Shown here: positions 8,827-55,967 of the stretch, piece after piece
How the letters are laid out: each line of letters starts with the position of its first letter
Numbering within the stretch: position 1 is the stretch's first letter
Origin: a virus
Length of the DNA stretch: 64,000 bases
Reading direction: 5' to 3' (one strand)
IMG/VR virus record: IMGVR_UViG_3300046504_000032
Span: 1 to 64,000 of that record
Translations under genes and position numbers: made by a program
Notes under the pieces: model-generated
Seen by the model: the letters and a program-made list of their open reading frames with translations, nothing else
The model's database searches: none
What the model was told of the DNA's origin: nothing

Positions 8827-8900
8827 TAGCACAGGCAAGAGTCGAACTTGCGATCTCTTGGTTATGAGCCAAGCGAGACGGGCCACTTCTCTACTGTGCA
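8827..8900 (-). tRNA. tRNA with CAU anticodon (Met or Ile2)
   Basis: The minus strand folds as a cloverleaf: acceptor arms TGCACAG and CTGTGCT, D stem GAGA/TCTC, anticodon stem CTTGG/CCAAG with loop CTCATAA, variable AGATC, and T arm GCAAG/CTTGC with loop TTCGACT. The 1-72 position is a U-U mismatch. Only two G-C pairs close the anticodon loop, so it does not look like an initiator. It could be elongator Met or, if modified, Ile. CCA is not encoded. Confidence 0.9.
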
Positions 8901-17000: not shown

Positions 17001-20000
17001 AGCCGCCTGTTTTGCCCTTCCAAATATAACCAGTGGTACATGGCGCTGCAGTCTCTTTTCTTTTCCGGGTAGTTGTTCCCATGCTTCAAGGATATTCTTG
17101 AATTTCTCCATAGCAGTTTTCACTCCCTCTGACTGTGGAATGATTATCTGCGTATGTTTCCCGTCCTTGAGTTTGGGAATAGTCTTTGCTTCCTTGAATT
17201 CCGGTACATCTTCTGTCAGGACTACATAAGAATTAGCTCTGAATAGTCTCATGAGCTCAGGAGCATTCTTGTATGACTTGAATCTCTTAACAACCTTAAA
17301 CTTACCGGCTGCAGTAAACTCCAATGAAGGTTCGATGGATCCAAAGGTGGATGCGAACTGATCAAAGGTATTGATATTATGTTTCTTTAAAATCTCAGGA
17401 GCAATGTATTTCATCATGGTCCATACTTCAGCCATAGTATTACTGATTGGAGTACCGGTAGATAAGATCACATTCCTTCCGTTCATTTTTTCCTGAACGA
17501 ACTTAACCTTCATATACAATCCGAATGCTCTCTTTGACCCCTTGGTGTCAATCCCTTTGATATTCTGAAGTGCAGTAGCAAATCCAAGTTTCTTGTAAGC
17601 ATGTGCTTCGTCAACAAATAATGCATCTACTCCCATTTTCTCAAATAGCCTGACATCATCCTTACGTCTGAAAGCCTGTTTCTCAAGTTGTGTTTCTTTA
17701 CTCAGATTGCTTCTGGCTATATCCTTTACCTTTTTGGTTTTCTTTTTGGTAGGATTATCCATTTTGAACATCTGCTCATTCAGGGCTTCGATTGATTTCT
17801 TGAGGTCACTTGCAATCGGGTTATTCCAGGAACCATCATCAACTTCATCAAGTACCTGCTGCAGTTCTGCTATCCTTTCCTGGATATATGCTCTTTCCCT
17901 GGCAGGATCATCAGGTATGAAGTCAAGGAAACTCTGCGGTATTATTATCGAATCCCAATCTCCGTATGCTATTTTATTGAAAATCAACTGTCTCTTTTCT
18001 GCCTTCATCTTATTCAGAGGAGGAGGAACGAGTATTTTTGCTGCAGGGTATAACTCCCGAAATGAATTAGAGAACTGTTCAAGTGTCGAATTCTGGACCA
18101 CTATCATCGGTTTCTTTGCGAGTTTGAGCCTGCGCATTTCCATTGCAGTAGTGATCATTGTAAAAGTCTTACCTGTTCCAACCTGCATAGCAAGAAGTGT
18201 ACTTTCTTTCAGGGAACGCATCACCCCTACCCTTTGTATTCCATAGAGTTTTATATCTTTTGATGCTCCAGGGAAATGATCAAAGGAAGGTGCGTTATAG
18301 TTCTTCTCAATAAAGTCGTTATACTTAGCATTATATACCGTTTCGATCTGTTCAACGTATTCAGGTTTGTCATAGACATAATTTACGAAGGTATCCATGA
18401 TATCATCCATCTTACCCTGTGCCTGAGCTGTAGCTTCAATATCTACCTTTTCAGTCTTGACCCTTCTTCCATCAACATAATCATAAGATGTTCTGACAAC
18501 TCTCGGTGTGCGTAGATTAAGGGATTTCTCAACTAATTCCAATCCACTAAATTCCTCTGTACCTGCGGTTTTATTCTTAGCTCCGTACTGCCCGTCATGT
18601 CCCCTGACTATCCAATGCCCTGTTGCATTGCTATATTCGATAGTAGCATTAACGTCCAGATGATCTTTCACAAACTGCTTCACCATATCCCCGGGGATCC
18701 AGGGAGTGCCAAGACTGAATTTTACTAACTGTCCCGGAATGTCTTTAGGAACCACCGATTTGAGTGCCTCAACATTCTTTAGATATAATGGATTGTCTTT
18801 TGATGCTTCGAGTGCAGTATTGTATTTCGTTCTGACGAACCCTGAAAGGTAAGTGTCTTTATCCTCGATCTGTTCTGTTGCAGGATTGCGGAATACCAGA
18901 CCTTCTTCGAGTAATTCTTGTGTAGCCTGTTCCTCTGTCATTCCCAGGATGGAAGCCATGTAAGGGATATCTACAGCATTACGATATGAGATTGAGATGT
19001 TAAGCGCATCTTCAACATTTCCTGCTGTAGTTGGTTCTATTACAGGGAAGTTGACCCTCTTGGTGAATATGTCAGATTTATCAATGAATTCTTTTCTGAT
19101 ATTTCTTCCATTCTTATCTAATTCAGAAGTATGAGAGACATTCTCAAGGGCTGCTACTGCGTTGTGTTCAGAATCATCCTCAAGGAATTCGAGTGCTTTA
19201 TTGTTATTGATCTTACCATAAGACTTAAAGAAACCGTCATATTCCTTATTAAGGTTGGCACGAACAGTCTCAAGTACTTTAGGGTCAGCATCGGGAGACT
19301 GTTCCATAGTGATCAGATCATTTGCAAGTGATTTGATCTTCAGGTAGTCATCAGCGATCTTATTAGTCTTGTATGACTTGCCCTTTACTTTGATGGTTTT
19401 ATCGTTCCATTCTGTAAGTGCAAGGTCTCCATTGACCACTTCATAGATCTTACCTCCTCTGTTTACTATAGTACCATTACGTTCCTCATCGTTTGCTGCT
19501 ATTAGTTCTTCCGGGGGTTTATTTTCTGCAGTCTCCATGATGCTTTTTGGCATCGTGGCTATACGAGTTGCAAGTTCTGTGATGAGGTCTTTCCCTCTTA
19601 TCGGTGCGAGTGTCTGACGGTCTGCTGAATATAATCCTCCTCCTCCGGCTTCATGTGCAAGCATCATCTTCCCAAGCATGTTATCAGGATTCTCTGCAAA
19701 ATATTGATTTACTTCGATCTTAACCGGTAATCCATCTTTAGTCTCTGCATCACCGATTGGTACTGTTATTCGAAAGTCTTTAGCATTTGGACTGATGATA
19801 TCACCGATACGTTTACGGAAGATCACTATGTCAGTTGTAACTTCTGTTCCTGCATTCTCAGCAAAGGCATTATTCGGAAGTCTTATTGCTCCTACAAAAT
19901 CAGCATTACCCTCTGTTACTACCCATTCCCTAAACTTTGCACTTGCCGGACTGTCAAGACTTGAATTAGAAGTGATAAACACTCCAATTCCTCCCGGCTT

Positions 20001-23000
20001 GAGCTGACGAATTCCTTTTGCAATGAAATAGTTATGCAGGTAGAACTTGGATATATCCTGATTCTTGGCATCGAATGGTGATGTTTTGCCAAATGGTACG
20101 TTTGTGATAATAAGATCTTGTGATGCAATAGGTTCATTGGATAATTCATACCCTTTCACATTCACTCTTGCCTGTGGATAGAGTTTCGTCATTATCCTGC
20201 CGGTGATACTATCAAGTTCGTATGCTTTGAGTATTGAATTGTCCTGCAGATATCCAGGCATTGCACCAAAGAAGTGACCTATACCTCCTGCAGATTCAAG
20301 TACATTACCTCCCCGGAACCCAAGTTGTTCTGCCAGGTTCCACATCTGCCGGATAATAGGAATGGAGGTATAATGTGCATTGATTGTAGAATTTACAGCA
20401 TTATTAAACTCATCAGGAGTTAATAGTGAGAGTAGTTTTTTATGATAGCCGCCATACTTTTTGTGCCATTCTTCATGCCACCTGGGTTCTGCCCATTTTC
20501 CCTGATCGAGAACTGTAGCAAGTCCTCCCCATCCGGTATATTTTGCAAGGATGTCCTTTTCTTCCGGAGTAGCATTCCGGTTTTCTTTCTCAAGTTTCTG
20601 AACTAATTCTATTGCAGAGATATTGGCTCTTATCTTTGCAAATTCCCCTTTAGGAACGAATGCCTCATCAGTAATGACAAAGTTACGATCAGCTAAGTTT
20701 TCAGGCTGCGTTCTATTTCCGGTATCTGTCCTTTGAGTTCTCTCGACCACTCCGGAGGATCCTCGTCCCTCATCGGTGCTAAGAAGTCCGGTATTGTCGC
20801 CTCCTCTGCCTGGTTGCGCTGTCTCCCGGCTGCGATTAATTTCTGTATGTTCGCCTCCGCTTTGTCCACCATTGAGTTCAGGTAGTGTTGGAGTTTGTTC
20901 TGACGATACAGGTCCACCAGTTTCGGAAGGTCCCACTCCTCCAACCATTGGAGGTGTACCCTCGCCAGGGGTGTCTCGAATCCCTTTATCTCTAAGAGGT
21001 GTTGTGGCTTTTTCATGAGTGATATTTATATTATCAAAGTTACGTTTATCTGTAGATTTCTCATAAGAATCAGCAAATTTTTTAATTGTCCTTGCGAGTT
21101 CTCCGGCTGTAACATCGGCCTGAATCCATTGATTATTCATACCGGAATATTTCTTTGCCTTTGTGGTTAGTCTCCACAATATAGGACCATAACCCTGTCC
21201 ATGTCCCTCAATTTTCCATAATTCTGAATAATCTCCGGCAAATTCATTTGTCGGGTTGAACGGGATACTGACATACACACCGAGATCTGTTCCTGGCTTC
21301 CACAAAATAAAATGAGCATCACCTCCTGCAGGTGCAAGATTTACATTGGAATATTCGATCTTCTTACCTTTCCTGTCGGTATCGTGTTCCCATCCAAGAA
21401 GTTTAGCGATCTCTTTTGAAAACTTAGTTACGTCTTTTTTGATGATGGGTTCAAGTCCCCTGTGAGGATATTCATGTGTACGATAATACTCCTCCGGTAT
21501 TTTATATTCTCCGAGTAGTTGTAACTGGCTGTCGATCTCGGCTATCTGCCTGTCAATTTCTTCGGAAATTTGTCCTGCTTGTTCACGATCTGCAACATTC
21601 TCTGCTTGGTTGATGATAGCGCTTGCCTGATTTTCAATAGACGTAATGCTTTTTGATTCGGTTCCATTTTCTGTCTCCTCCTTTATTCTATTTGATTCTG
21701 TGATAGTCCTACCTTGATTTTTAAGATTATTCATCCATGTTTTCATGAATGAAAGTGTATCATTCATTCCTTTCTGGTCAATAACTTTACCTTCAGCAAT
21801 AAATTCCTGATATATAGGAGGATTGCTTTGTTCAAAATTTAATGGCACTATAATATCAAGCGAAGGATATACTGCAATATCAATTCTTGGATCTGTCATT
21901 AAATCTCCTTCCTGAATGTAATTGTGCTCCATGATCAGACGATATGCCTTCGGGTCTGGAAATAACATGTGATATGAGCCAAGCGTTTGGGCTTCAATGA
22001 CGAATGGCATAATAGCATCACCACGTTTACCAGATTTAAAGTAATCTCCAACTTTAATACTTTTTAGGATCGGGATTGCTTTTAATATCTGTTTATGTGC
22101 TAAAAGAACACTCTGTCCAAAATGAGTATAAGGCATAGCATCCTTGAACTTCTGTAACTCCTTCTGTTCGGGTGTGAGTACTGGTTTCCCTTCAAACAGA
22201 TCATTTACCAGTTTTAGTCCAAGTTTCTGTTTGATAGCAGCAACAATGCTCTCAGTATTGGTCCAGTCGAGTTTGTTATCCTTAATTAGTTGATTAATTT
22301 CACTATGATCAATGAGGTGACTGGCATAGTCACGAGCCTTGATGAGATTGGTTTCCCAACCGTCTTTAGGTCTATATTCTATTGATTCCCCGGCAAATTC
22401 GGGTTTTGGTGAAGGCTGCTGCTCCGCACTACCGACACTTTCAGCCGGAGCAGTTTTCTCGCCTCCGTTTATTTCTTGCGTCTGCTCTCTGCCTGTTTCT
22501 GCAGATTGCTGAAGTGAGAGTTCATCTCCGGTACGTGTTTCTTCAAGGAGGACACTCTTTTCCGTTTCGGTAAGTTCTCCCTGTTGCTGCAAACTCTTGA
22601 TTTCATCTTGTAGCCTCCGCTTTAAATCCGCTTCATCTATAGGTATATGACTGAAAACGGACTCTGGTTGTACTTCATTCTGGATATCATTATCGTAGAA
22701 TGTAAAAGTTACATTATCATTGTCTTTGTAAAGATCGTAAATCTTCCTGATATTAGCAAGAGAATTGGCAGATGTTTTTACATGGGTATCTATCCCTATG
22801 GACCTGCGTTCTTCTTTCATCCTTGGAATAACGCCCTCAATATAGGCAGTAAATGGGTCTCTCCATACATAAAGTATATCAACTTCCTTTCCATTCTCAA
22901 GGGCTTTCTCGATACGTCCCTTACTGGTTTCGAAGTTAGCCATGTTACTGTCATAGATCAGATAAGGAGGATTTTCCTTTTCAAGTTTCAGGTTAAGGGC

Positions 23001-26000
23001 AGTTGTTTTTCCTGCACCGGTACCTCCGGCTGTCATTACAACATAATTATTCTGTTCACTTGCAGGTTCACCTTGTATCAGATCATCATACAGTTTCTTT
23101 GCAAAATCAGAAGCAGGGTCATGTACTGCCTGGGAGAATTCAGTCGGGTTATTGCGATAGTCAGGTGATAGCGACTTAGCATGATCACCAGATATCACAT
23201 TCCCAAACTTACTAAGATACTCAGCTTTGTATCTTTCATAGTCATCAGTCAGGGCTTTTGCGAACCTGTCGTGGACGATCCTGTGGATTCCTGTAAATTC
23301 CTGCTTACCTTCGCCTTGAGTTCTTTCAGGAGTTCCCTCTGCGCCTGCAGTATTGAGATTCCCTTTACCTCTGCCCTCTTTTGGACCAGTTGGTTGAATT
23401 GGTTTTTCAGTTGTTCCTTTGACATTTTCTAATGATTTTTTATAGGTTGCTTCATTATTTAACCATTCATTATTGAAATATTTACCGTCAATTTCCTTCC
23501 AGAGATCCAGGTCAACGGGTTTCATCGTGTTTGCCTTATCCCATCCCCACACCTTGAACTGATCTATCGGCATCTGCTTGATCTCACCTAATCCTCTCCA
23601 CTTGGGTTCAAAATTTTGAAGATATCCTGCCCTTGCATCCCAATCACTTTCAAACCCTATCATTACCTTTGGCTCGTCATACTGTCCTGTATCAGGATTG
23701 ATCTGATCAATGACGTAGATATCCTGTCCTGGTTGTATATTGCCAAGATAAACATCCAAAGGTTCACCGTCAGGGGTAATTGTTCCGAGTATATGACCGT
23801 AATCATGGTTTAATGTCACACTCCATTTCTTACCACTTAGATCAGTCCCGGTCCTTATCATGCCCTTGGCTGTCTCAATGGAGATATCCATTCCAAGAAT
23901 AGCGATATGCCCTTTCGGATAAATGCCTGATTCTTTCTGAGCATCAGTAGGATTAGGTTCAACATCTTCCCGGGCTTCTTCGATCTCTCCCTTTATCTCA
24001 TCTGCACTTTTTAGTCCCCCCGGGACCATCCTTGGTCCTTCATGTGTCTCATGTAGCAAGCGAGAATAGACTTTAAATAATTTCAGCATTGTAGGTTGCA
24101 TCTCATCTGGCGAAGATGATTGCCCTTTATAGAAAACATTTACTGAGGCAAAGTCAGGGTCCTCATCAACTTCAAACTTCCATCCCGCTTTCTCAACTCC
24201 GGATTCGATCTTTTTCATCAGGGCGATACCTTCTTCCCTGGTTTTAGGTTCGTCAATCTCTTGTTTAATGTCCTTCCAGAATCCCTCATAGTCAATCTTC
24301 GATTCAGCTTCCTCTTTTGCCAGTCTTGACATCTTGTCGAGAGGGGATTCTTCGGATGCAGGTATAAATCTTGGGTTATTATAAGCGTTCCAATCCTCGG
24401 GTCTATGCTGTACATCGGAATCAGATATTAGCCTGAGTTTAGCCATACCTTTTTTGTCAGGTTCAATAACTTCATATTGTATGCCTGTGAACGTATCACG
24501 TATAAGATCACCTTTTTTGAAGTCCTTTGGATTTTGTTTCTCAATAGGTTTTGATGTAGGTTTTAACTTTTCAAGTATCTCTGTTAGTTTTGTGTTTTCT
24601 CCTTGATGTTCAATACCCCTACTGTCAAGTTCTCCGATTAATCTTGCAGCATAAGAAGATGGCAATGTTTTGACGAGTGCGCCTAGTTGATCTTTATGAA
24701 GTTCAATTTCTTTCTTGATTGTTTCCATTGAAACATTCTCAGCATTAGAAACATCATCACGATTCATCCCGGGTCTCTCTGCTAGAATAGATTCTCTTAC
24801 TGTTAATTTCTTCCCTTCTCTTTTCTTCAATACTGCAGCAAGTCTTTCTTTGCCAAGAGCTGAATTATCTTTTTGTAAGGATAGTAATTCATAATCTTTA
24901 TTCTTTTCAGCATTATCAATGATCTCTTGTTTCTGTCCTGCAGGAGTTTTTACAGTAGATATTACTTCCGGCTTCTCAATATTCTGTGTTACTATCTGCT
25001 GAATCTGTTTTTGATCCATTCCGGAAATATCCTCATCACTATACCCAAGTCGTTTAAGTTTGGGCATTAAGAACTCCATTGGATTCAAGTTAATTATTGG
25101 TCCTTCCCTCCCCCCAATAACAGGAGTAGCGCCTTCATGAGGCGCTTTCTCCTGCCCCCTCTCAGGCTTTGGTGCCTCGGCCTGAGCTTCCATTGGTTTT
25201 ATATCGGGATAATATTTTTTTACCTCATCATAGATACCGGGATATTCTTTGAGTACTTCCGGAGGGACAGGTTTACCCTCTTTGATAGCCATTGCTACAG
25301 CGCCTTTATGACCGAACCACCAAGGACCTACAGCTTTTCCTGATTCATCCCTCGGAGCCCAGGGCGACTTATAAGTGTCCTGATGCCATCCTGCTGTTGT
25401 CTTATCCTTCCATGCCTCATATTGCTTCCCGGTCATCTGGTAGGGTTCTAAACCTTTGGGGTTTGTCTCTTTCAGATTTTTGGCTTCTTCAGCGGCTCTT
25501 TCTTCCTGGCTTGCAGGTTGCTCTTTCTCTTTGTTTTTTTTAACTGACTTTTCTTCCGTAACTGGTTTATTTTCAACAGAGGCACCCTTTTGGTCAGGGG
25601 TGACTTTAGGGGTGACTTCTGGTGTTAATGTCTTAATCTTATCATCGAGAGACTTCTGCAGATCGGGGTCAAGTATGATCTTTATTTTCTCAAGTGTCTT
25701 GAGTGATGAGGTATGGTTTATTGCTCCCTCTATGGTAGAACGGTCAACCTCATCTTTCCCGATGAAGTATGACGTGACCATTTCCGGGAACTTCTTCTTG
25801 TACATCTTATCAAGTTCCTCGTCACCTTCAAATCTCAATCCATACAAGTCCTGTGGTGTCTCGGCTCCGATTATTGCGCCTTTGATATATCCTTTCGATA
25901 CAGGGTTCCCGTCTTTCTCGTATATCGGAACGTCTGACTTGCGTACTTCTTTACCGTCAACCTTGACGGTTTCCTCTACGGGTTCCTCGAATTTGGCGTT

Positions 26001-27851
26001 TATATCCTTGAGTTTGTCCGGGGGAATTTCTATTGCTTCACCAAATTCTCCATTATCCTTAACCTCATTCACCTTGACGGTACCATCGAATCCTATCTCC
26101 TGCACCTCCCAATTCCGGCCCATGTAGGTTATCTCGTCCCCTACTTTTGCAGTCTTATGAGCGAGATCTTCATTAGCCTGTCTCTCGAGAGGGTCAATCG
26201 GTGCGCCAGTTTTTGGGTCTTTTATCGGTTCGTCTCCTGCGAATCCGGAGATATAACCCTTCTTTGCCCTGTAAGCATCGACCCCCATATCGACAAATTC
26301 CTGCGGGGTCATTGTCTTTTCAACCTTCCAACCATTGATAAACCGGCCTTCTCTGTCTATGATACGTACAAGTTTATCATTGACTATTATTGATCCGTCA
26401 ACAGGATTACGTTCAATCCTGCTGAGTAAGGCGTATGTACCGTCATCAAGTACCTTAGAACCTTTCTGAAAATATCCCTTTCCGTCAACATCGGTCATCA
26501 TGTTTACCGCTACCGGCTTACCTGTCTTGGGATGAATCTCTGCCACTCTGTTCAGAAGGGAGGTCATTGTCCTTTCGGCATTATTGGTATATATCTCCTG
26601 TTCGATAACTGGCAATGCTTCCTGATTAGATTTCCACGCATCAAGAGCTTTCTCTCTCTCTCCATTGGTCATAGTGATCTGGTCAACGATATTTTCCCGG
26701 GCAATATCCTTAAAGTTCATCTTACTGTCCATGACAGTTATCTTGTTTGGATCAGTTGGATGGTCCCCTACCTGTTCGTAAACTTTCCCGTCTTTATCCT
26801 GAATGATCGTTATTCCTGATTTCTTGCGTCTCATGTAGTTGTAACTCTCATTCTGTGCTGCGGTTATACTACCAAGGAATGTGCCAAGGAACGCACCGTC
26901 CCGGAAGGACTTCAATCCATCAGCAACGACATTCATAAGAGCGATCTTATCTTCCGGGTACTTGTTTAGGTTCTGCAGCATCTCCTGTGTCATAGTCATA
27001 ACACTGAATGCTCCGCCTGTCTTGACTGCGTTCTTTCCTATTTTACCTGCCAGATTGAGATATTTTTGTGTTGCCCCTGGAACGTCTGCCAGGTATCTAC
27101 GAAGAATATTTGATGCTAATTCAGGATTTTCCCTGAGTACCGTTGAGGCAGCCGACCCTATCATTGAATTGACTGCCTTACCTCCGGCTCCTGCTACCTC
27201 TCCGGCAAGGTACATGATCAGTCCCGACCCAAGTCCAACAGCCTGTTTCTGAAACTCCGGTGTCTTGTGTCCTGTTTTTTCATCATAAAGTTCTGATTCG
27301 AGTATTGAGTTACCGTATGCACTTGTAGCGAAAGCAGCCATAGTCCCCTGTCCTATGATAGCAGGTATAGCAGCGAGAGAGGTACCCCCGGTAGCTAATG
27401 ATGCAGCTGCAGACGCACCCATGCCTAATATCATTGGCATCCATGCACCTACTGAAGATAAGCCACTCTCGGTATAAATCTCATTATTCTTTTTTAGGTT
27501 CTCTCTTGCTTTTTCTTTCAGCACTTCAGATGCTATCATGCCATTCATCTGCCCTGTTCCCGGGAAACTGCCAGGCATTCCTACTATTGGCAGTATTTCT
27601 GCAAGGAATGACTGCAACCCTGATCCCATCTGTAACCAACCTTTTCTTGACTGTTCCCTGAACTTACTATCCTTGCTGAACATAAAAGGCCTCTCAACCC
27701 ATTCATTATGCTGTGCTGCCTGTTCTGCTGTCTGCGGGTCAAAAGTAGAAGTAGGGAGTGGTGCTCCCGCTGTTTTTTTCTTCTGTATATCCGCTAATGA
27801 CGGGAATCCTTTAGGTCCTGTCTGTAGGGTTTGATCTACTGTATCTGGCAT
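11013..27851 (-). CDS. Giant polyvalent protein (5612 aa): kinase, InPase-like, methylase-like, SNF2 helicase, zincin-like, LPD38-like domains
   Basis: One uninterrupted frame of 5612 codons. In order (approximate residues): hydrophobic Ala/Gly-rich segments 130-230; polyvalent-type motif GKPVPPEVLKEYPG near 860; pyrophosphatase-like domain near 1350 (HDYGHILGTITPDGEPLDVY, then FDE-like YDEPKVMIGF); zeta-toxin-like P-loop kinase with GGTGAGKTT near 1609; N6-adenine methylase-like fold near 2520-2590 (SAGGIGHFF, then NVPFG in place of NPPF); SNF2 helicase with QVGTGKTF near 3225, VDEAHAYKK near 3415 and QRNGRILRQG near 3760; zincin-like SHEVFAHYGLE near 4290; an ADP-ribosyltransferase-like end with SRAGIDGM and VIYDNTP near 4600; and an LPD38-like region near 5020-5450. 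Such proteins are thought to be injected with phage DNA to protect it and take over the host. It lies between portal and internal virion genes, which fits packaging in the head. Confidence 0.9.
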   Translation of the reverse strand: MPDTVDQTLQTGPKGFPSLADIQKKKTAGAPLPTSTFDPQTAEQAAQHNEWVERPFMFSKDSKFREQSRKGWLQMGSGLQSFLAEILPIVGMPGSFPGTGQMNGMIASEVLKEKARENLKKNNEIYTESGLSSVGAWMPMILGMGASAAASLATGGTSLAAIPAIIGQGTMAAFATSAYGNSILESELYDEKTGHKTPEFQKQAVGLGSGLIMYLAGEVAGAGGKAVNSMIGSAASTVLRENPELASNILRRYLADVPGATQKYLNLAGKIGKNAVKTGGAFSVMTMTQEMLQNLNKYPEDKIALMNVVADGLKSFRDGAFLGTFLGSITAAQNESYNYMRRKKSGITIIQDKDGKVYEQVGDHPTDPNKITVMDSKMNFKDIARENIVDQITMTNGEREKALDAWKSNQEALPVIEQEIYTNNAERTMTSLLNRVAEIHPKTGKPVAVNMMTDVDGKGYFQKGSKVLDDGTYALLSRIERNPVDGSIIVNDKLVRIIDREGRFINGWKVEKTMTPQEFVDMGVDAYRAKKGYISGFAGDEPIKDPKTGAPIDPLERQANEDLAHKTAKVGDEITYMGRNWEVQEIGFDGTVKVNEVKDNGEFGEAIEIPPDKLKDINAKFEEPVEETVKVDGKEVRKSDVPIYEKDGNPVSKGYIKGAIIGAETPQDLYGLRFEGDEELDKMYKKKFPEMVTSYFIGKDEVDRSTIEGAINHTSSLKTLEKIKIILDPDLQKSLDDKIKTLTPEVTPKVTPDQKGASVENKPVTEEKSVKKNKEKEQPASQEERAAEEAKNLKETNPKGLEPYQMTGKQYEAWKDKTTAGWHQDTYKSPWAPRDESGKAVGPWWFGHKGAVAMAIKEGKPVPPEVLKEYPGIYDEVKKYYPDIKPMEAQAEAPKPERGQEKAPHEGATPVIGGREGPIINLNPMEFLMPKLKRLGYSDEDISGMDQKQIQQIVTQNIEKPEVISTVKTPAGQKQEIIDNAEKNKDYELLSLQKDNSALGKERLAAVLKKREGKKLTVRESILAERPGMNRDDVSNAENVSMETIKKEIELHKDQLGALVKTLPSSYAARLIGELDSRGIEHQGENTKLTEILEKLKPTSKPIEKQNPKDFKKGDLIRDTFTGIQYEVIEPDKKGMAKLRLISDSDVQHRPEDWNAYNNPRFIPASEESPLDKMSRLAKEEAESKIDYEGFWKDIKQEIDEPKTREEGIALMKKIESGVEKAGWKFEVDEDPDFASVNVFYKGQSSSPDEMQPTMLKLFKVYSRLLHETHEGPRMVPGGLKSADEIKGEIEEAREDVEPNPTDAQKESGIYPKGHIAILGMDISIETAKGMIRTGTDLSGKKWSVTLNHDYGHILGTITPDGEPLDVYLGNIQPGQDIYVIDQINPDTGQYDEPKVMIGFESDWDARAGYLQNFEPKWRGLGEIKQMPIDQFKVWGWDKANTMKPVDLDLWKEIDGKYFNNEWLNNEATYKKSLENVKGTTEKPIQPTGPKEGRGKGNLNTAGAEGTPERTQGEGKQEFTGIHRIVHDRFAKALTDDYERYKAEYLSKFGNVISGDHAKSLSPDYRNNPTEFSQAVHDPASDFAKKLYDDLIQGEPASEQNNYVVMTAGGTGAGKTTALNLKLEKENPPYLIYDSNMANFETSKGRIEKALENGKEVDILYVWRDPFTAYIEGVIPRMKEERRSIGIDTHVKTSANSLANIRKIYDLYKDNDNVTFTFYDNDIQNEVQPESVFSHIPIDEADLKRRLQDEIKSLQQQGELTETEKSVLLEETRTGDELSLQQSAETGREQTQEINGGEKTAPAESVGSAEQQPSPKPEFAGESIEYRPKDGWETNLIKARDYASHLIDHSEINQLIKDNKLDWTNTESIVAAIKQKLGLKLVNDLFEGKPVLTPEQKELQKFKDAMPYTHFGQSVLLAHKQILKAIPILKSIKVGDYFKSGKRGDAIMPFVIEAQTLGSYHMLFPDPKAYRLIMEHNYIQEGDLMTDPRIDIAVYPSLDIIVPLNFEQSNPPIYQEFIAEGKVIDQKGMNDTLSFMKTWMNNLKNQGRTITESNRIKEETENGTESKSITSIENQASAIINQAENVADREQAGQISEEIDRQIAEIDSQLQLLGEYKIPEEYYRTHEYPHRGLEPIIKKDVTKFSKEIAKLLGWEHDTDRKGKKIEYSNVNLAPAGGDAHFILWKPGTDLGVYVSIPFNPTNEFAGDYSELWKIEGHGQGYGPILWRLTTKAKKYSGMNNQWIQADVTAGELARTIKKFADSYEKSTDKRNFDNINITHEKATTPLRDKGIRDTPGEGTPPMVGGVGPSETGGPVSSEQTPTLPELNGGQSGGEHTEINRSRETAQPGRGGDNTGLLSTDEGRGSSGVVERTQRTDTGNRTQPENLADRNFVITDEAFVPKGEFAKIRANISAIELVQKLEKENRNATPEEKDILAKYTGWGGLATVLDQGKWAEPRWHEEWHKKYGGYHKKLLSLLTPDEFNNAVNSTINAHYTSIPIIRQMWNLAEQLGFRGGNVLESAGGIGHFFGAMPGYLQDNSILKAYELDSITGRIMTKLYPQARVNVKGYELSNEPIASQDLIITNVPFGKTSPFDAKNQDISKFYLHNYFIAKGIRQLKPGGIGVFITSNSSLDSPASAKFREWVVTEGNADFVGAIRLPNNAFAENAGTEVTTDIVIFRKRIGDIISPNAKDFRITVPIGDAETKDGLPVKIEVNQYFAENPDNMLGKMMLAHEAGGGGLYSADRQTLAPIRGKDLITELATRIATMPKSIMETAENKPPEELIAANDEERNGTIVNRGGKIYEVVNGDLALTEWNDKTIKVKGKSYKTNKIADDYLKIKSLANDLITMEQSPDADPKVLETVRANLNKEYDGFFKSYGKINNNKALEFLEDDSEHNAVAALENVSHTSELDKNGRNIRKEFIDKSDIFTKRVNFPVIEPTTAGNVEDALNISISYRNAVDIPYMASILGMTEEQATQELLEEGLVFRNPATEQIEDKDTYLSGFVRTKYNTALEASKDNPLYLKNVEALKSVVPKDIPGQLVKFSLGTPWIPGDMVKQFVKDHLDVNATIEYSNATGHWIVRGHDGQYGAKNKTAGTEEFSGLELVEKSLNLRTPRVVRTSYDYVDGRRVKTEKVDIEATAQAQGKMDDIMDTFVNYVYDKPEYVEQIETVYNAKYNDFIEKNYNAPSFDHFPGASKDIKLYGIQRVGVMRSLKESTLLAMQVGTGKTFTMITTAMEMRRLKLAKKPMIVVQNSTLEQFSNSFRELYPAAKILVPPPLNKMKAEKRQLIFNKIAYGDWDSIIIPQSFLDFIPDDPARERAYIQERIAELQQVLDEVDDGSWNNPIASDLKKSIEALNEQMFKMDNPTKKKTKKVKDIARSNLSKETQLEKQAFRRKDDVRLFEKMGVDALFVDEAHAYKKLGFATALQNIKGIDTKGSKRAFGLYMKVKFVQEKMNGRNVILSTGTPISNTMAEVWTMMKYIAPEILKKHNINTFDQFASTFGSIEPSLEFTAAGKFKVVKRFKSYKNAPELMRLFRANSYVVLTEDVPEFKEAKTIPKLKDGKHTQIIIPQSEGVKTAMEKFKNILEAWEQLPGKEKRLQRHVPLVIFGRAKQAAIDLRLINSANYDDPGSKTNEVVKQVKRIYDETTSYKGTQLVFSDIFQSPDLGSTVPRFNLYEDIRDKLMKLGVPATEIVIIKDQSGGQREAIYDRVNKGEVRIVLGSTGKLGTGVNVQDLLKAIHHIDAPIRPMDFEQRNGRILRQGNQHADMGLPVEVVTYGVEKTLDATAFQRLDIKMKFINQMMKGDKLDREANDAADEEDATDMTFAQMMATLSGSQYAILHTQKMYELKKLQTGRRNYERGMIDAKKGLQNARTIVGYLTDALMDVKNATELIRKYFKPLEGKGEGTTSGLNIKSITFNGKQYQGEKLLEGFNLELTKMIDLFKAGVGENKTSILKINDIPVPIFLSYDGRNDRFVYQVEPVQSSSAEAKITGYCTSGAGFFQSLKIQFNNFLDGKLKDVEKRLAQHQNDIPTFENTLTKKFAQQEKLDNTEREVRDLEEKMKEETENGMNKNPKPIVTPTRDQKIAWLREQVSNPEHGEKTREILTDYIKQYDEAPLEATKDLILEEIASKSRMIKEKFDEIDASKDNLLDEDIEDSPEPSPSYMRRPKEPDLNDENMRPIWDNAQFPKYQATPGTFAGEEVAVMREHEMMRRAQIMSEYTGVPIIIVRTKQELPKHLVKDAIKRFGDLRKSEIPSVYDRANKKVYLVVEDNKSVSDLVSNMSHEVFAHYGLEALLGVEPYLRVLQLTYTGMSPVDVVELANRYNVPESDWKTVAEEYIGYIAGNGQINPNLWQRIIAYIRNLIRKILNISMSKSEIMALLKKAKDNLTNNKPEVTDYANIGDYLDALTAYSTRTGKAEGGFGYGIHASESRAIEEAIGKGNQDYRTYFGVAESQIGTKATGWIEKALANNDFDSNKALDYLESKMTKYQNFERHYRIVKDARNYLFDNEPKNPTAMYKVLVGKGKAPDELNFLSWDKPIDYDQQENIVNQLDAENKFDITVSGAFHSGEALYNKITDLYGSDREASLFLSRAGIDGMKKDQSMVIYDNTPVDVLNQIAYMRRPKSTFVGEHLANAGKVYTNQAETKRNWQETVNGIREYIQDNNLPVRKFEEEIIKRGGLQPNDAKPYRDISLSFGRQETLYKDFMKTKMKPIQESVAKIIKGGMSGENILPYIISKHAIERNMVFRAREIDEFIMKNPDATDQDIAELKEEIADKDYSGVMAFDVNDEFTNPDELAQTISDEFEEQVSKPLIDELWSNIHNASSAILDIWEAGQQLSPEQKQMYLEQFKYFVPLRGWREGAAKDLVYVKGEGFKKSLMHATGRKSLADNPLAYMQSVAFSAIGEQVDNEVKTSMLRLLMRNLQSADLYDLATVKKLYYIRVDLPDGTHEWEPTLDRPSQELFDSGEAVTKIYNEYQKLRVPKQAREHEVIVRRQGGDVVMIFKGKMLSVAQAMNKRNFMYHNIFSKVKDARTLNQAVTGLSYMNNFLKAAYTSWNIVFPFTNFLRDVQEASMTQLIRGDAGQKIVVNYHRAFPSIIRFLRDKLDMNNPDDVKLRDFYLTGGATGFTHLLSAEDLEKDLMDEINRMVGRGTVRGDIKHFMHESVQIISMWNQVFEDATRFSVYLTSIDLGKTKEEAASDAKEASVNFNRKGKSSKLYDSIYAFWNVAWQSLQKNFKLGKDYPKRFAAVASAFMALGFLEALLNHATDDQDPENDYYNINPYMRENYLVLPNLPRLISGESKGNKYLSIPLPQFWRGFKSIGSLAYDLTQGKTTVKEAITKAMLNFGSAMSPVDIGGFSKTGEFSLAPIVPTIIKPFYEIATNRNYMGYTIAREPFDKAQKKLLANSGLGKSNVNPAAKFFTDMLFRWGGGENATKYYIDKTGEEKKVPGFLDINPSFIEHLFKGYTGGSGAVFSDLITTISQALKPDQEVDFKNIPFVNKFLRETPESKWNIISDYYNLKDVVGVHKGLKRAYQQQAEAGGSTTGIEATEGSNYYQQYQDIVDSYDKDIKEISDQVDFTDVEGTKPIYDLMQQCIVDIKALKEQYKMK

Positions 27852-36714: not shown

Positions 36715-36745
36715 TTTGGATATTAACAAAGAATGCCTATATTTG
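36715..36745 (+). promoter_or_regulatory. Early promoter
   Basis: TTTG (36715-36718), 19-nt spacer, TATATTTG (36738-36745): a full match to the Bacteroidota -33/-7 consensus, 22 nt before the first early gene. It probably drives the early plus-strand operon. Confidence 0.8.
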
Positions 36746-36757
36746 ACCTGTGAGAAA

Positions 36758-36767
36758 CATCTGACAA
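36758..36767 (+). promoter_or_regulatory. CATCTGACAA leader, copy 1
   Basis: Directly abuts the ATG at 36768, with AA before it. Complementary over 12 nt (AACATCTGACAA) to the candidate small RNA at 55001-55078. No Shine-Dalgarno is present. Confidence 0.6.
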
Positions 36768-37013
36768 ATGGAGAAAAAAGACCTAACACACAGACACATA
36801 GCGAGATACGGAAGGTTAGACAGGATGAATCTGGTAAAGGAGATCATGAGTACGTTTGGATCGTATGATGGGTTGATGTGTTATTATCGTTACAGGATCA
36901 GGGAGGAATACGCAAATATGTTTGGATGTCCGATAATATATGTTAAGGGGAGGGATTTGATTGAAGTAGAGGCGAATATCAGTAAGTTACTAAGAGATAT
37001 AAAGTTATTTTAA
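36768..37013 (+). CDS. Hypothetical early protein (81 aa)
   Basis: Not recognised. Basic, mostly helical small protein (DRMNLVKEIMSTFGSYDGLM) with no membrane segment. First gene after the strong early promoter, in the position where phages often encode host-takeover proteins. Its start codon is preceded by the CATCTGACAA leader, not by a purine-rich ribosome-binding site. Confidence 0.65.
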   Translation: MEKKDLTHRHIARYGRLDRMNLVKEIMSTFGSYDGLMCYYRYRIREEYANMFGCPIIYVKGRDLIEVEANISKLLRDIKLF

Positions 37014-37025
37014 TATTCACCAAAT

Positions 37026-37035
37026 CATCTGACAA
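37026..37035 (+). promoter_or_regulatory. CATCTGACAA leader, copy 2
   Basis: The last A is the first base of the ATG at 37035. CATCTGACAATG is complementary over 12 nt, start codon included, to the candidate small RNA at 55001-55078. Confidence 0.6.
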
Positions 37036-37415
37036 TGAGTAATTACGCAACATTAACGAGTAAACACCCTGAACTGTTTGAATGCTTCTTTGCATTCTCT
37101 AATCAGCAGTTTGAGGAAGGTAAGATCAAGGCTAACATTGGGGATAAGAAGATTCTCTCCGGTGGTAGTGGTTTGTATGGTACAAAAGAAGGTATCACGA
37201 AATTACTTGCCGATTATGACGCAAGAGACAAAGAGATTGCGGATACATGCAGCCCGCAGGACGTGTACAAGTATGAATTTGACAATCATGAGTGCAGTTA
37301 TACGAATGAAGATACAGCTGCAATGGAGATTGTGGTCCGTATCTTTGGTAAAGAGAAGGCAAAGAGTGTGAAGCGTAGATTCGCATACGTTGAAGTTGAA
37401 GCAATAGAAATATAG
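37035..37415 (+). CDS. Hypothetical early protein (126 aa)
   Basis: Not recognised. Soluble and acidic, with a middle segment KANIGDKKILSGGSGLYGTK and a C-terminal helical part (KEKAKSVKRRFAYVEVEAIEI). It is in the early operon and starts directly at a CATCTGACAA leader. Confidence 0.65.
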   Translation: MSNYATLTSKHPELFECFFAFSNQQFEEGKIKANIGDKKILSGGSGLYGTKEGITKLLADYDARDKEIADTCSPQDVYKYEFDNHECSYTNEDTAAMEIVVRIFGKEKAKSVKRRFAYVEVEAIEI

Positions 37416-37425
37416 TATTCATTTA

Positions 37426-37434
37426 ATCTGACAA
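37426..37434 (+). promoter_or_regulatory. ATCTGACAA leader, copy 3
   Basis: Same leader lacking the first C, 4 nt before the ATG at 37439. Nine bases remain complementary to the candidate small RNA. Confidence 0.5.
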
Positions 37435-37438
37435 ATCA

Positions 37439-37633
37439 ATGACAAACGTAGAAATGGTAAGAAACGGAAACATCCTGACGATAGTAGTTGATCTATCAGT
37501 CAAAGGAGAGATGAGTAAATCGGGCAAGAGTATAGTTCTGGCCTCCACACTTGGGAATAAGAAGATAGAGGCAGACGATAAACTGGACAACGGACAGGCT
37601 ATCTTTATAGGACTGAATGTTTACAAGCAGTAG
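37439..37633 (+). CDS. Hypothetical early protein (64 aa)
   Basis: Not recognised. Small beta-rich protein (EMVRNGNILTIVVDLSVKGEM, then SGKSIVLASTLGNKKI), without membrane segment or metal motif. Its start follows a variant of the repeated leader. The gap to the next gene contains a short imperfect hairpin. Confidence 0.65.
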   Translation: MTNVEMVRNGNILTIVVDLSVKGEMSKSGKSIVLASTLGNKKIEADDKLDNGQAIFIGLNVYKQ

Positions 37634-37698
37634 CTTTAAAGGTCTCAAGCCCTAAAATGATGAGAGCCGGGGATCATACCCCGGTAAATCAACTAAAG

Positions 37699-37708
37699 CA
37701 TCTGACAA
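37699..37708 (+). promoter_or_regulatory. CATCTGACAA leader, copy 4
   Basis: Directly abuts the ATG at 37709; 10 nt complementary to the candidate small RNA. Confidence 0.6.
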
Positions 37709-37969
37709 ATGACAAACGGAATTATCAAAACAGGAGACACGATCTTATGGAGACCATGTTTCAACACACAGCCTCCGGTAGAGGCAGAAATAACAGGCAT
37801 TGAGATATGCGAGAGACCAAGAAGCAAATATGGTAAGCCAGTTAGTTGGATACCGGCAGACGCAAAGGATTTCGCAGTATTCAGCCTATCCAATCATCAC
37901 TGGTGTTATGGAGAACAGGTTGAGACCTTAGACGAACTGATATTAGATTACGAACTCTATTATTCATAA
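37709..37969 (+). CDS. Hypothetical early protein (86 aa)
   Basis: Not recognised. Small acidic protein with several Trp and Pro residues (KTGDTILWRPCFNTQPPVEAE); the opening resembles small beta-barrel proteins. Starts at a CATCTGACAA leader and is followed after 3 nt by the next gene. Confidence 0.65.
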   Translation: MTNGIIKTGDTILWRPCFNTQPPVEAEITGIEICERPRSKYGKPVSWIPADAKDFAVFSLSNHHWCYGEQVETLDELILDYELYYS

Positions 37970-37972
37970 GCT

Positions 37973-38284
37973 ATGGCGCTCAAGTTACTCAGAGATATAA
38001 CAAGGGAGACTTTGGCAGTCACAGACACCAAAGGGAATATCCAGATCATCACCCTGAAAGCCGGAGATATGTTAGAATTCCGGGTAAAAGGTAAGAGGTT
38101 CCGCTATGAGGTACCGCTTCAGGCCTGCTACAATATGGCACTGGTTTACACAGCACAGCAATTCTACCGCAGGAAACTGGCTAAGTACATACAAGACAAG
38201 AAAGATGGTCGCAGGGTGCGCAAACCACGCCCACTATCCCCCATCTTCAACGCAAGAGTTTATGAATGCCTTAAAATCAAGTAA
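37973..38284 (+). CDS. Hypothetical basic early protein (103 aa)
   Basis: Not recognised. N-terminal beta-rich half (LAVTDTKGNIQIITLKAGDM) and a Lys/Arg-rich C-terminal half (YRRKLAKYIQDKKDGRRVRK), which suggests nucleic acid binding. It is the one gene of the first six without the repeated leader; it starts 3 nt after the previous stop and is probably translated by coupling. Confidence 0.65.
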   Translation: MALKLLRDITRETLAVTDTKGNIQIITLKAGDMLEFRVKGKRFRYEVPLQACYNMALVYTAQQFYRRKLAKYIQDKKDGRRVRKPRPLSPIFNARVYECLKIK

Positions 38285-38293
38285 TCATTAATA

Positions 38294-38303
38294 CATCTGA
38301 CAA
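38294..38303 (+). promoter_or_regulatory. CATCTGACAA leader, copy 5
   Basis: Directly abuts the ATG at 38304; 11 nt (ACATCTGACAA) complementary to the candidate small RNA. Confidence 0.6.
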
Positions 38304-38816
38304 ATGAACAAAAATGTACAAACAGAGCTCCTGCTCGCAAGAAAAGACGGTGTATCGCATTGTAATACGTGCGATGCATCAACTTGGGACGGACAGTTCC
38401 ACGATGCAATGTTGCTATTGCAGGCTAACCCCCCTGAAGATATTCAGGTGCGCTGCGTCATCAGACATGGCATACACGAATGGACACTCATTGACCTGAA
38501 ACCGGATTCAAGGAAGGAGAACCCTGTTAATATCACCACTGAGGAAATAGACCGGATGACCGACAGACGCAAACCAATGGAAGTATTCGGTGCCTATCAG
38601 CACTTCCTCTATTACTTCGATCAGGTACAGTATGAGAAAGAGGAACCAAACGGAGGACTGACAAACCATTTCGTTGAGAAACTCACAGGCCTGAGAGCAA
38701 GACATAACGACTACAACTCAATAGAGGTACTGGTCCGTTGGGTGCAGGAAATGAGCCAACACAATCAGGCAGACCTGTTAGAATACATCCTCAAACATCA
38801 TTCTAACAAATGGTAG
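38304..38816 (+). CDS. Hypothetical early protein (170 aa)
   Basis: Not recognised. Soluble and acidic, with a short VSHCNTCDAST segment near residue 18 that carries Cys-His-x-x-Cys but no second metal pair, and a helical C terminus (SIEVLVRWVQEMSQHNQADL). Last of the genes with the CATCTGACAA leader. Confidence 0.65.
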   Translation: MNKNVQTELLLARKDGVSHCNTCDASTWDGQFHDAMLLLQANPPEDIQVRCVIRHGIHEWTLIDLKPDSRKENPVNITTEEIDRMTDRRKPMEVFGAYQHFLYYFDQVQYEKEEPNGGLTNHFVEKLTGLRARHNDYNSIEVLVRWVQEMSQHNQADLLEYILKHHSNKW

Positions 38817-40476: not shown

Positions 40477-40646
40477 GAGCAGGATCATTAAGGCTTACCG
40501 GCCTGTATGTATGGGCCGGTAATCTCTTTTCCAAGTCCCGGAAGCGATATCTGCAATGGCAATGGAAAAGAAGATTGTGTAAGCTACACGAAACATTTGA
40601 TAAACTAACAGACATCGACAATGACAGGGCACAAAGTAAATCTTAA
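40473..40646 (+). CDS. Small basic protein (57 aa)
   Basis: ATG overlaps the previous stop (ATGA). 57 residues, Arg/Lys/Trp-rich (YLQWQWKRRLCKLHETFDKL), no membrane helix. Its last 26 nt overlap the start of the next gene. Small, unrecognised; likely expressed because it fills the gap between overlapping genes. Confidence 0.5.
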   Translation: MRAGSLRLTGLYVWAGNLFSKSRKRYLQWQWKRRLCKLHETFDKLTDIDNDRAQSKS

Positions 40647-40860
40647 AGGCAGGCTCCGGCAGCAGGTATTTTATGATGCTGTGCAGTTTGTTATAGACAA
40701 GATCGGTAAGGAAACAGTCACCGGTCACTTTATCTTCATGTATAAAGGCAAAGAAGAATTCCCCATGAAGAAGGTCAGGTTGGGGGTTAATGAGGCAGCC
40801 CTGCTCAGTAACATCAAGATCAGAACTATTGGAAAAACTAAGTATAACGAAACCGAGTAA
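40621..40860 (+). CDS. Hypothetical protein (79 aa)
   Basis: Not recognised. Small basic protein with a helical N-terminal half (LRQQVFYDAVQFVIDKIG) and a C-terminal beta-rich half. Its start is preceded by CATCGACA, a degenerate form of the leader found before the first early genes. It is 2 nt from the Rad50-like gene and might be translated with it. Confidence 0.6.
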   Translation: MTGHKVNLKGRLRQQVFYDAVQFVIDKIGKETVTGHFIFMYKGKEEFPMKKVRLGVNEAALLSNIKIRTIGKTKYNETE

Positions 40861-50537: not shown

Positions 50538-51299
50538 ATGAATGAACTTGTATTAAACAACCCGGAAGGGAAAAGAGTGACTACCTCTCTGATAATAGCA
50601 GAGAAATTTCACAAATCACATGGTAAAGTATTGCGTGATATTGATAAGTTATCATGTAGTCAAGAGTTTAGACGAGCCAATTTTGGCTTGTCCTCCTATC
50701 TTAATGCTCAAAATAAAGAGCAGCCGATGTACTATATTACCAAAGATGGCTTTATGATGTTGGTATTTGGGTTTAATGGCAGGGATGCCGGTAAACTCAA
50801 GGAATTATTCATAACTGCCTTTAATGAAGGACAGGAAGCATTAGCTGTTCTTGATAATGATGATGCTGTTTTAGCAAGGGCATTTAATATTCTGGCAAAC
50901 AAACAGAAAGCTCTTGAAATGCAACTTGAACAAAAAACAGAACAGTTGGCTATTTCTGAGAAAGCGATCAAAGAAGCAGCTCCAAAAGTTCAATACCATG
51001 ATGAAGTGCTACAATCCAAAACCGGGCATCCAATTACTGTCATAGCTGCTGACTTGGGAATTACGGCAAATAAACTGAATCGTATCCTTTGTAAAATGGG
51101 AGTGCAAAGAAGGGTAGGCGGAACTTATGTACTTTGTGAAAAACACCTTAACAAGGGATATGCTTCTTCTTATACCCATAAATACATAGATACTCTTGGG
51201 ATAGAACAAACAAAGAGGTTAATGACATGGACTGAGGTAGGGAGGAAATGGCTTATTGAAGAATATAAAAAATATATAGCATCTCCTAATCTATTCTGA
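50538..51299 (+). CDS. Phage antirepressor, Rha plus KilAC domains
   Basis: 253 residues. Residues 1-100 follow the Rha pattern (VTTSLIIAEKFHKSHGKVLR, then MYYITKDGFMMLVFGFNG). Residues about 140-250 are a KilAC/ANT-type C-terminal DNA-binding domain (GHPITVIAADLGITANKLNR, then WTEVGRKWLIEEY). Such proteins switch phage gene expression or counter a repressor. They are common in temperate phages, but also in lytic ones, and no integrase is visible here. It follows an unusual AAGTAA repeat tract that may be regulatory. Confidence 0.88.
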   Translation: MNELVLNNPEGKRVTTSLIIAEKFHKSHGKVLRDIDKLSCSQEFRRANFGLSSYLNAQNKEQPMYYITKDGFMMLVFGFNGRDAGKLKELFITAFNEGQEALAVLDNDDAVLARAFNILANKQKALEMQLEQKTEQLAISEKAIKEAAPKVQYHDEVLQSKTGHPITVIAADLGITANKLNRILCKMGVQRRVGGTYVLCEKHLNKGYASSYTHKYIDTLGIEQTKRLMTWTEVGRKWLIEEYKKYIASPNLF

Positions 51300-54566: not shown

Positions 54567-54980
54567 ATGATGAAAATTATCTTTATCCTTTTACTTCTAC
54601 TGGTATCTTACAGGGCCTTTGCGCCTATTTCCCCTTGTATAACCATCGTCAAGCCGGAGGTCATCGACCCCTACAAGCAGCTCATCTATGCTATTGGCAT
54701 GGTGGAAGGGAAATTAGATACCCTTGCGATTAATCCCGTTGAACAGGCCTACGGATACTTTCAAGTACGGGCCATTCGACTGGAGGATTATAACGCAAGA
54801 ACTGGTAGTAATTATTCCTTACAAGACATGCTCGTTTACGAGAAAGCCGAGAGAGTATTCAGGTATTATGCCTCTCAGATCGGATTCAAGGACCCGGGCA
54901 GAATTGCAAGGAGTTGGAATGGTAGTGGTCCTAAAACTTGGGATTATTGGAAGAAAGTGAGAAATTATTTAATTATCTAA
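54567..54980 (+). CDS. Lysozyme / transglycosylase-like secreted protein
   Basis: 137 residues with an N-terminal signal peptide (IIFILLLLLVSYRAFA). AIGMVEGKLDTLAINPVEQA (near 43-62) contains the Glu expected for a lysozyme-like active site. YGYFQVRAIRLEDYNARTGS near 63-82 and IARSWNGSGPKTWDYW near 113-128 complete the pattern of Bacteroidota phage lysozyme-like proteins. It is the last plus-strand gene before the small RNA and, unlike the amidase, is exported by its own signal. Confidence 0.75.
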   Translation: MMKIIFILLLLLVSYRAFAPISPCITIVKPEVIDPYKQLIYAIGMVEGKLDTLAINPVEQAYGYFQVRAIRLEDYNARTGSNYSLQDMLVYEKAERVFRYYASQIGFKDPGRIARSWNGSGPKTWDYWKKVRNYLII

Positions 54981-54998
54981 TAATTATTTCTACCTTTG
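54968..54998 (+). promoter_or_regulatory. Promoter of candidate small RNA
   Basis: TTTA (54968-54971, one base off TTTG), 19-nt spacer, TACCTTTG (54991-54998, full TAnnTTTG). Expected start of transcription is about 55001-55004, at the first base pair of the predicted RNA. Confidence 0.6.
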
Positions 54999-55000
54999 TA

Positions 55001-55078
55001 CTTCATTACTGACTTTACGAAGTCAAACATTGTCAGATGTTGTAGTGAAAGAAAACCGGGTCCCAAAGCCCGGTTTTC
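55001..55078 (+). ncRNA. Candidate antisense small RNA with three-way junction
   Basis: Hand pairing gives an outer stem CTTCATTAC (55001-55009) with GTAGTGAAAG (55042-55051, one bulged A). It also gives hairpin TGACTT-TACG-AAGTCA (55010-55025) and hairpin AACAT-TGTCAG-ATGTT (55026-55041). They join without unpaired bases. The 55051-55078 hairpin closes the transcript; the two stems share G55051. The loop and stem CATTGTCAGATG are complementary to the CATCTGACAA leaders before five early genes. A promoter box ends 2 nt upstream. A 17-codon minus-strand frame (55030-54977) also starts at this motif. Confidence 0.55.
55051..55078. terminator. Bidirectional terminator
   Basis: GAAAACCGGG (55051-55060) pairs perfectly with CCCGGTTTTC (55069-55078). 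It lies between convergent transcription units and ends the candidate small RNA as well as the leftward operon that ends with the gene at 55116. Confidence 0.75.
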
Positions 55079-55115
55079 TGCATTATTACCATGAGTGGGG
55101 ATATCTCCCCTAAGA

Positions 55116-55967
55116 TTAAGGATCGGTAGCAGTTTCTGTATCTGAGTCGTCATTAAAGAACGGAGTGGCCCGGTACGACTTCATGCTCTGAAAATAACTC
55201 ATCCTGAGATCTGAGATAGCATCTTTCAGTAATGCATCCTCTACTTTATAATCTTCCATGAACCGGTTGATCAAGTACCAATCCCGGAGAACGGTACCGA
55301 TGAAACACTTCTCAAATAGAGCGTCAATGCCGAGTAATACATTGGTATCAAACTTACTCACGTCCAAAGCAGAATAGATCAGGATATAATTCTCTGTCTG
55401 AGCTGATACTGCATACTCCAAGCCGGTTATGTCACCACTAAAGGCAGCATCAATGACAAATTCAGTTCCGGTATTTGAAACTATCGTTGCTTCTTCGTTT
55501 TCCAACAGACCAGGTGAAGTAATAACCAGTTTCATCCCTGCATACTGGTTTGTTGTCATTGCCAATGAACTATCTGTAACAGTAAGCCCATCTACACTCA
55601 CAGATTCTACAGCGCTTGCAAACTCCGGATCCCCGAATGGCACATTAAACCTGAATGCACTATTGATAGATTTGGAGAACCCTGATATCTCTTTGAATAT
55701 CTTTGCAGATCCGGACTGTAGGAAGTCGAGAAACTCTACTCGTTCATCTTCCGTTATCTGGAATGCCTCAAGTTGAGAATTCCCCTGTTGGTCTTTCGCT
55801 AACTTGCCACGTAGCGCACTACGCCTCTTTATTTTCTCAAACAATGCTTCCACCGGGAAAGCAAATAACAACAGGTAGGTATCGCCTACATTCCCGGCTC
55901 CCACGTCTGCAAGAAAATCCTCCAGGTTATAATAGAGTAAAGAATCGGCATTTAAAATATAGGTCAT
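55116..55967 (-). CDS. Hypothetical protein (283 aa), possibly virion-associated
   Basis: Not recognised. Helical N-terminal region (LFAFPVEALFEKIKRRSALR), a beta-rich middle (VDGLTVTDSSLAMTTNQYAG, Ig-like composition) and a helical C terminus that ends acidic (NDDSDTETATDP). The pattern of domain order is that of a tail or head-to-tail accessory protein. It is the last gene of the lysis and adhesion operon. Confidence 0.6.
   Translation of the reverse strand: MTYILNADSLLYYNLEDFLADVGAGNVGDTYLLLFAFPVEALFEKIKRRSALRGKLAKDQQGNSQLEAFQITEDERVEFLDFLQSGSAKIFKEISGFSKSINSAFRFNVPFGDPEFASAVESVSVDGLTVTDSSLAMTTNQYAGMKLVITSPGLLENEEATIVSNTGTEFVIDAAFSGDITGLEYAVSAQTENYILIYSALDVSKFDTNVLLGIDALFEKCFIGTVLRDWYLINRFMEDYKVEDALLKDAISDLRMSYFQSMKSYRATPFFNDDSDTETATDP

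Follow-up and report, generated by a model that had tools for sequence, protein, structure and literature searches.

The candidate small RNA gene described here lies in a stretch of 64,000 nucleotides (hereafter the window, W), which represents nearly the whole of a virus record of 67,119 bases. On the plus strand a lysozyme-like gene (54567–54980) is followed by TACCTTTG at 54991–54998, the −7-type box of the putative sRNA promoter that an earlier note on this DNA had pointed out, and by the RNA itself at 55001–55080 (+), the start of which is estimated to within a few nucleotides. From the other side the minus-strand gene 55116–55967 converges on the same junction. For 55001–55080 RNAfold returns the identical structure that had previously been paired by hand, a three-way junction without unpaired junction bases at −33.9 kcal/mol (z = −8.0, a stability equalled by none of 200 shuffles). 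Its closing stem is formed by 55002–55009 (+) and the partner arm 55042–55049, and encloses hairpin 1 (UGACUU-UACG-AAGUCA, 55010–55025, +) and hairpin 2 (AACAU-UGUCAG-AUGUU, 55026–55041, +), the latter bearing the anti-leader seed, which is partly held in the hairpin at an opening cost of about 4.7 kcal/mol. The RNA ends with an intrinsic terminator (55050–55079, +), detected by both RNAfold and a scan for promoter boxes with terminators; its hairpin had been recognised before, but the stem has 12 bp in the RNAfold structure and not the 10 bp claimed. The body without the terminator (55000–55050) folds moderately better than shuffles (z = −2.6), and body-only folds beat shuffles both in the window and in its relative G001 described below. 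In the mechanical scan of the window for TAnnTTTG with a strong terminator no more than 125 nt downstream, the sRNA locus was the sole match. No clear −33 TTTG box was found at the sRNA promoter of the window, and in Rfam the site belongs to no family, the best matches being far below the gathering scores.

The proposed targets are the genes starting at 36768, 37035, 37439, 37709 and 38304 (36768–38816, +), which carry a short leader at the ATG or a few bases upstream of it. Leader 1 (AACATCTGACAA, 36756–36767) is located before gene 36768, leader 2 (CATCTGACAATG, 37026–37037) overlaps the ATG of gene 37035, and leaders 3 (ATCTGACAA, 37426–37434), 4 (CATCTGACAA, 37699–37708) and 5 (ACATCTGACAA, 38293–38303) precede genes 37439, 37709 and 38304, all of them on the plus strand. 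Their perfect complementarity to the sRNA extends over 12, 12, 9, 10 and 11 nt, exactly as the earlier note had stated. Upstream of leader 1 lies TATATTTG (36738–36745, +), part of what is probably the promoter of the early operon (TTTG-N19-TATATTTG), and the short 5' UTR starting from it would be mostly leader 1. The motif ATCTGACAA occurs eight times in the 64-kb window compared to 0.96 expected copies; five of these are the early-gene leaders, one is the sRNA site and two are found elsewhere. The leader is absent from the many genes further down the operon and is therefore not the general ribosome-binding site of the phage, and it also differs from the plain initiation context of Bacteroidetes, where A is favoured at −3 and −6 and Shine-Dalgarno sequences are absent (PMC6847099). 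Gene 37973 starts 3 nt past the stop codon of gene 37709 and may be co-regulated with it if the two are coupled. Gene 40621 (40621–40860, +) shows the leader ACATCGACAATG, which is one base short of the motif and ranks fifth for pairing, and is perhaps a degenerate sixth leader and target. With the sRNA at 55001 and the leaders at 36756–38303, the RNA is encoded 17–18 kb from its proposed targets; it closes the plus-strand gene block that the targets open.

Complementarity of at least 9 nt to the five leaders was reached by only one of 500 dinucleotide-shuffled sRNAs. A comparison of duplex energies, which the earlier note had suggested as a check, places the five leaders at ranks 1, 2, 3, 4 and 7 among 80 gene starts, and averaging the five best values in the window gives an energy 7.9 sd below that of shuffles. 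Including the opening costs, net energies of −8.2, −9.9, −3.8, −9.6 and −9.2 kcal/mol were obtained for leaders 1–5, with the −9.6 kcal/mol of leader 4 resulting from a 12-bp helix that contains one G-U pair. The leaders themselves are accessible in the window, their opening cost being 0.7–2.6 kcal/mol. Judged from these sequence comparisons, the complementarity of the RNA to translation-initiation regions is above chance.

Two close relatives, G001 (IMGVR_UViG_3300032053_000048) and G003 (IMGVR_UViG_3300031669_000031), have the lysozyme-like gene as upstream neighbour of the sRNA as well. In G001, whose lysozyme-like protein is 59% identical to that of the window, the gene is directly followed by TATCTTTG, a hairpin GGAGC-GACAA-GCUCC, a second hairpin displaying CCGUCAGAUGUG and then the terminator. 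Its early-gene leaders on the minus strand are ACATCTGACAAATG (three copies), ACATCTGACAATG, ACATCTGACGACATG and AATCTGACATGG, and the window gene 38304 has two separate counterparts there, both with the leader. The cassette of G003 is located behind a 38%-identical lysozyme and consists of TACCTTTG, a hairpin with a CCACU/AGUGG stem, the hairpin AACAUU-UGUCAG-AAUGUU and a terminator, with GCATCTGACAAATG, ACACTGACAAAATG and GCATCAGACAAATG as early leaders. Both phages retain the GUCAG anti-leader core together with the leader motif of the early genes. The comparison of W, G001 and G003 shows that the sequences of stems and terminators vary, including that of hairpin 1, while the hairpin-hairpin-terminator layout and GUCAG are constant. 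The pairing register slides, as the match stops before the AUG in G001, ends at or within it in the window and can include it in G003. This seed is common to only these three phages, which therefore represent conservation rather than covariation, and a three-sequence MAFFT alignment did not bring the seeds into register.

Two further elements were observed in this comparison. A second cassette of TACCTTTG and a terminator is present in G003 at 40730 (+; locus L082, about 730–820). It was rejected as a leader-pairing RNA as it pairs poorly with the early leaders, and is possibly another small RNA. Type-P3 twister ribozymes are found at 37632–37700 (+) of the window (45.9 bits) and at 17880–17956 (−) of L080 (45.6 bits). 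The one in the window is located inside the early operon directly upstream of leader 4 (gene 37709), and in G003 twister-P3 also lies directly upstream of a leader gene. Self-cleavage would cut the early mRNA beside the leader and may contribute to this regulation.

In more distant relatives the junction is marked by the convergent gene, copies of which are about 35% identical in G005, G007, G008, G009 and G023. At this same gene junction a promoter-body-terminator cassette occurs in seven relatives (these five, G001 and G003). The TAnnTTTG box is found at the equivalent place in G001, G003, G005, G007, G008 and G023, and G009 has a poorly matching box (CATCTTTG), so that the sRNA has its own promoter box and intrinsic terminator in W and most relatives. 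The box-terminator scan returned the sRNA locus as sole match also in G001, G005, G008 and G023, gave one extra place in G003 and missed the cassettes of G007 and G009. In sequence, the distant sRNA bodies show no recognisable similarity to the window sRNA, and these phages also have different early leaders. G008 carries leaders of the CTGACA(AA)TG type, mostly AACTGACAAATG, at four genes, G023 carries GCAACGACATG at two neighbouring genes and G007 carries ACAAACACAACGAACATG at one gene and ACACAACGATATG at another; the motifs of G007 and G023 rest on two genes each, and the G007 motif was identified with knowledge of the sRNA. All three sRNAs pair with their own, differing leaders (G008 ACTGACAAATG, G007 ACACAACGA, G023 AGCAACGACATG). 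The pairing is CGUUGUGUUUGU with 12 bp in G007, UGUUGUUGCUG with 11 bp including one G-U in G023, and GUUGCGUGUUG and UGUGCUCG in G008, where UUUGUCAG is present in the terminator loop, too.

The strength of this pairing was compared between phages and with shuffled sequences. Among six sRNAs, the leaders of G008, G007 and G023 each pair most strongly with the sRNA of their own phage, and the top-pairing gene start genome-wide is a motif-bearing early gene in all six phages that have both partners on record; on the records of G005 and G009 no early region was recognised. When the energies at motif leaders were compared with those for 2,000 shuffled versions of each phage's sRNA body, p values of 0.0005 (W), 0.0005 (G001), 0.001 (G003), 0.018 (G008), 0.012 (G007) and 0.037 (G023) were obtained. 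In a genome-wide test of the five best energies, the signal was strong in W and G001, where shuffles were as good in 0/150 and 1/150 cases, and weak in G003 (6/150) and G008 (8/150), and the test was not significant for G007, G023, G005 and G009; counting k-mers likewise gave no significant result for G003, G007 and G023. Seed and target change together in G008, G007 and G023, with each case being individually modest (p about 0.01–0.04). Relatives in which the loop changes and the leaders stay had been named by the earlier note as speaking against a trans-acting RNA, and what we found is the opposite.

The window encodes a P22-type portal protein, an SU10-type capsid protein and a protein of 5,612 residues. 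The latter is a single ORF (11013–27851, −) adjoining the portal gene, and the giant protein is present in the relatives as well, with 5,421 residues in G001. The window also contains a Rha/KilAC-type antirepressor gene (50538–51299, +; Pfam Phage_pRha and ANT) and a tRNA-Met (CAT) gene (8826–8900, −). Relatives were found in Bacteroidetes assemblies and remote ones among Bacteroides phages, and the Bacteroidetes-type TAnnTTTG promoter boxes are compatible with such a host. When 2.9 million viral contigs were scanned with a DNA pattern of the sRNA, G001 was the only real one among 43 matches, and Megablast against phage records gave no match. Protein searches using the lysozyme, capsid, portal, convergent-gene and DnaC-like proteins identified G003 and the distant set and no further close member. 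The Bacteroides phage BS-TP4, which has a 38%-identical portal protein, shows only a terminator at the comparable convergent junction and no common leader; the wider group as a whole therefore does not share the system. One host assembly contained CTGACA..ATG in high number, which was disregarded because TGA stops beside starts can inflate such a count.

The syntenic cassettes in seven relatives, the complementarity, the core and leaders kept in G001 and G003 and the preference for the own partner in the distant phages all support the trans-acting RNA that the earlier note had proposed. We consider it likely that the locus encodes an antisense phage sRNA of about 80 nt, which pairs in trans over the starts of several early genes and represses them. 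At the end of the early operon, a promoter of the Bacteroidetes type (TAnnTTTG) would drive transcription of an RNA that ends at the intrinsic terminator and displays the seed in a hairpin loop. The seed would pair with the short leader directly upstream of, or overlapping, the early-gene start codons, so that the 30S subunit could not load and translation would be repressed, perhaps accompanied by mRNA decay. As the pairing covers about −12 to +3 of accessible leaders, which is the position of an initiating 30S subunit, translational repression rather than activation is the default reading. Due to the location of the sRNA at the 3' end of the targeted operon, the RNA could come from its own promoter as well as from read-through; supply by read-through would probably lead to a delayed negative feedback on early expression, and the timing may include a late shut-off.

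It is unlikely, in our estimate, that RNA and pairing are real and the effect is a different one, with the sRNA activating or protecting the early mRNAs or the leaders acting as a sponge that keeps it off a host target. The pairing evidence is identical for either sign, and mRNAs with new 5' ends, or with the twister-made ends before leader 4, would be examples of what might be protected. However, the leaders are already open (0.7–2.6 kcal/mol), and pairing in the start region is therefore expected to block initiation and not to free it. Most known sRNAs that pair at translation starts repress. For GibS, repression by start-region pairing is discussed in PMC7366714. Improbable is a role of the leader primarily as the binding site of a phage or host protein for early translation, to which the sRNA complement would be secondary by competing or tuning, or partly coincidental: the strong conservation of the leader in position and sequence is as a protein site would have it, but the syntenic RNA carrying the complement would be left unexplained, and so would the best pairing between own sRNA and own leader in G008, G007 and G023. 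We regard it as quite improbable that only a bidirectional terminator between convergent operons is present and that box, body and complementarity arose by chance. A hairpin with A and T runs on both sides does lie between the convergent genes 54567–54980 (+) and 55116–55967 (−), and the junction in BS-TP4 has just such a terminator, but relatives with a diverged body again have the promoter box, about 50 nt upstream of the terminator, the leader complementarity exceeds that of shuffles in six phages, and both in the window and in G001 the body folds better than shuffles even without the terminator. The alternative offered by the earlier note, in which the site is a sixth leader, on the minus strand, of a 17-codon ORF (55030–54977), is hardly tenable, since CATCTGACAATG and 17 open codons do exist on that strand but the relatives already refute it, with no ATG after the motif in G001, only three codons in G003, and promoter box and 3' terminator on the plus strand in all of them.

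The repressing sRNA favoured here can be compared with several known systems. P22 sar, a small RNA of a phage, acts by pairing and thereby keeps translation of a phage gene from being initiated (PMC12197685), and the window RNA would resemble it as a small phage RNA that pairs at a phage translation start. Sar, however, is a cis antisense RNA to one gene (ant), whereas the window RNA is encoded 17–18 kb away and addresses five genes by a repeated leader. OOP and aQ of lambda are phage antisense RNAs adjusting phage gene expression (PMC12197685), but each of them is antisense to a single gene (cII and Q, respectively), and OOP works via RNase III cleavage of the cII mRNA. A cis antisense RNA of the sar or OOP type was rejected for the window because of this distance and because the targets are not on the opposite strand of the sRNA. 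VpdS from phage VP882 and PreS from lambda are trans-acting phage sRNAs (PMC12197685); they differ in their dependence on Hfq and their proteobacterial hosts, the target of PreS is host dnaN and those of VpdS are host and phage RNAs, and for neither of them does PMC12197685 describe a dedicated leader repeated before a phage gene set. GibS from Bacteroides thetaiotaomicron, an organism with no obvious Hfq or ProQ, is an sRNA pairing at start codons (PMC7366714) and is similar in being a Bacteroidetes sRNA with start-codon pairing, probably without Hfq or ProQ. In contrast to the window RNA it is bacterial, about 145 nt long, has metabolic targets and an unstructured 5' seed, and no sequence relation between the two was found. 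In the open-access literature we found no description of a phage sRNA addressing several early genes via a dedicated, co-changing leader tag.

The phage sRNAs described to date, largely from proteobacteria, mostly regulate a single gene in cis or act on mRNAs of the host. In the present case several early genes of the phage itself appear to be addressed by one phage RNA, by means of a dedicated leader tag that they share. The setting is phages of Bacteroidetes, hosts that lack Shine-Dalgarno sequences and have no obvious Hfq or ProQ. It is conceivable, if rather unlikely, that the leader serves as password and the sRNA as key, so that, in a cell that such a phage already inhabits or has infected, the resident sRNA would block early-gene translation of an incoming phage with the same leader, resulting in an RNA-based superinfection immunity. 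If this were true, an incoming phage with jointly switched leader and sRNA would escape the resident sRNA, the specificity groups would be W/G001/G003, G008, G007 and G023, and the diversification of tag and seed in step would be accounted for. As tag and seed differ between the relatives, mixed pairs offer a direct test of the pairing rule and its specificity. One regulon would also bring together small early genes whose function is unknown.
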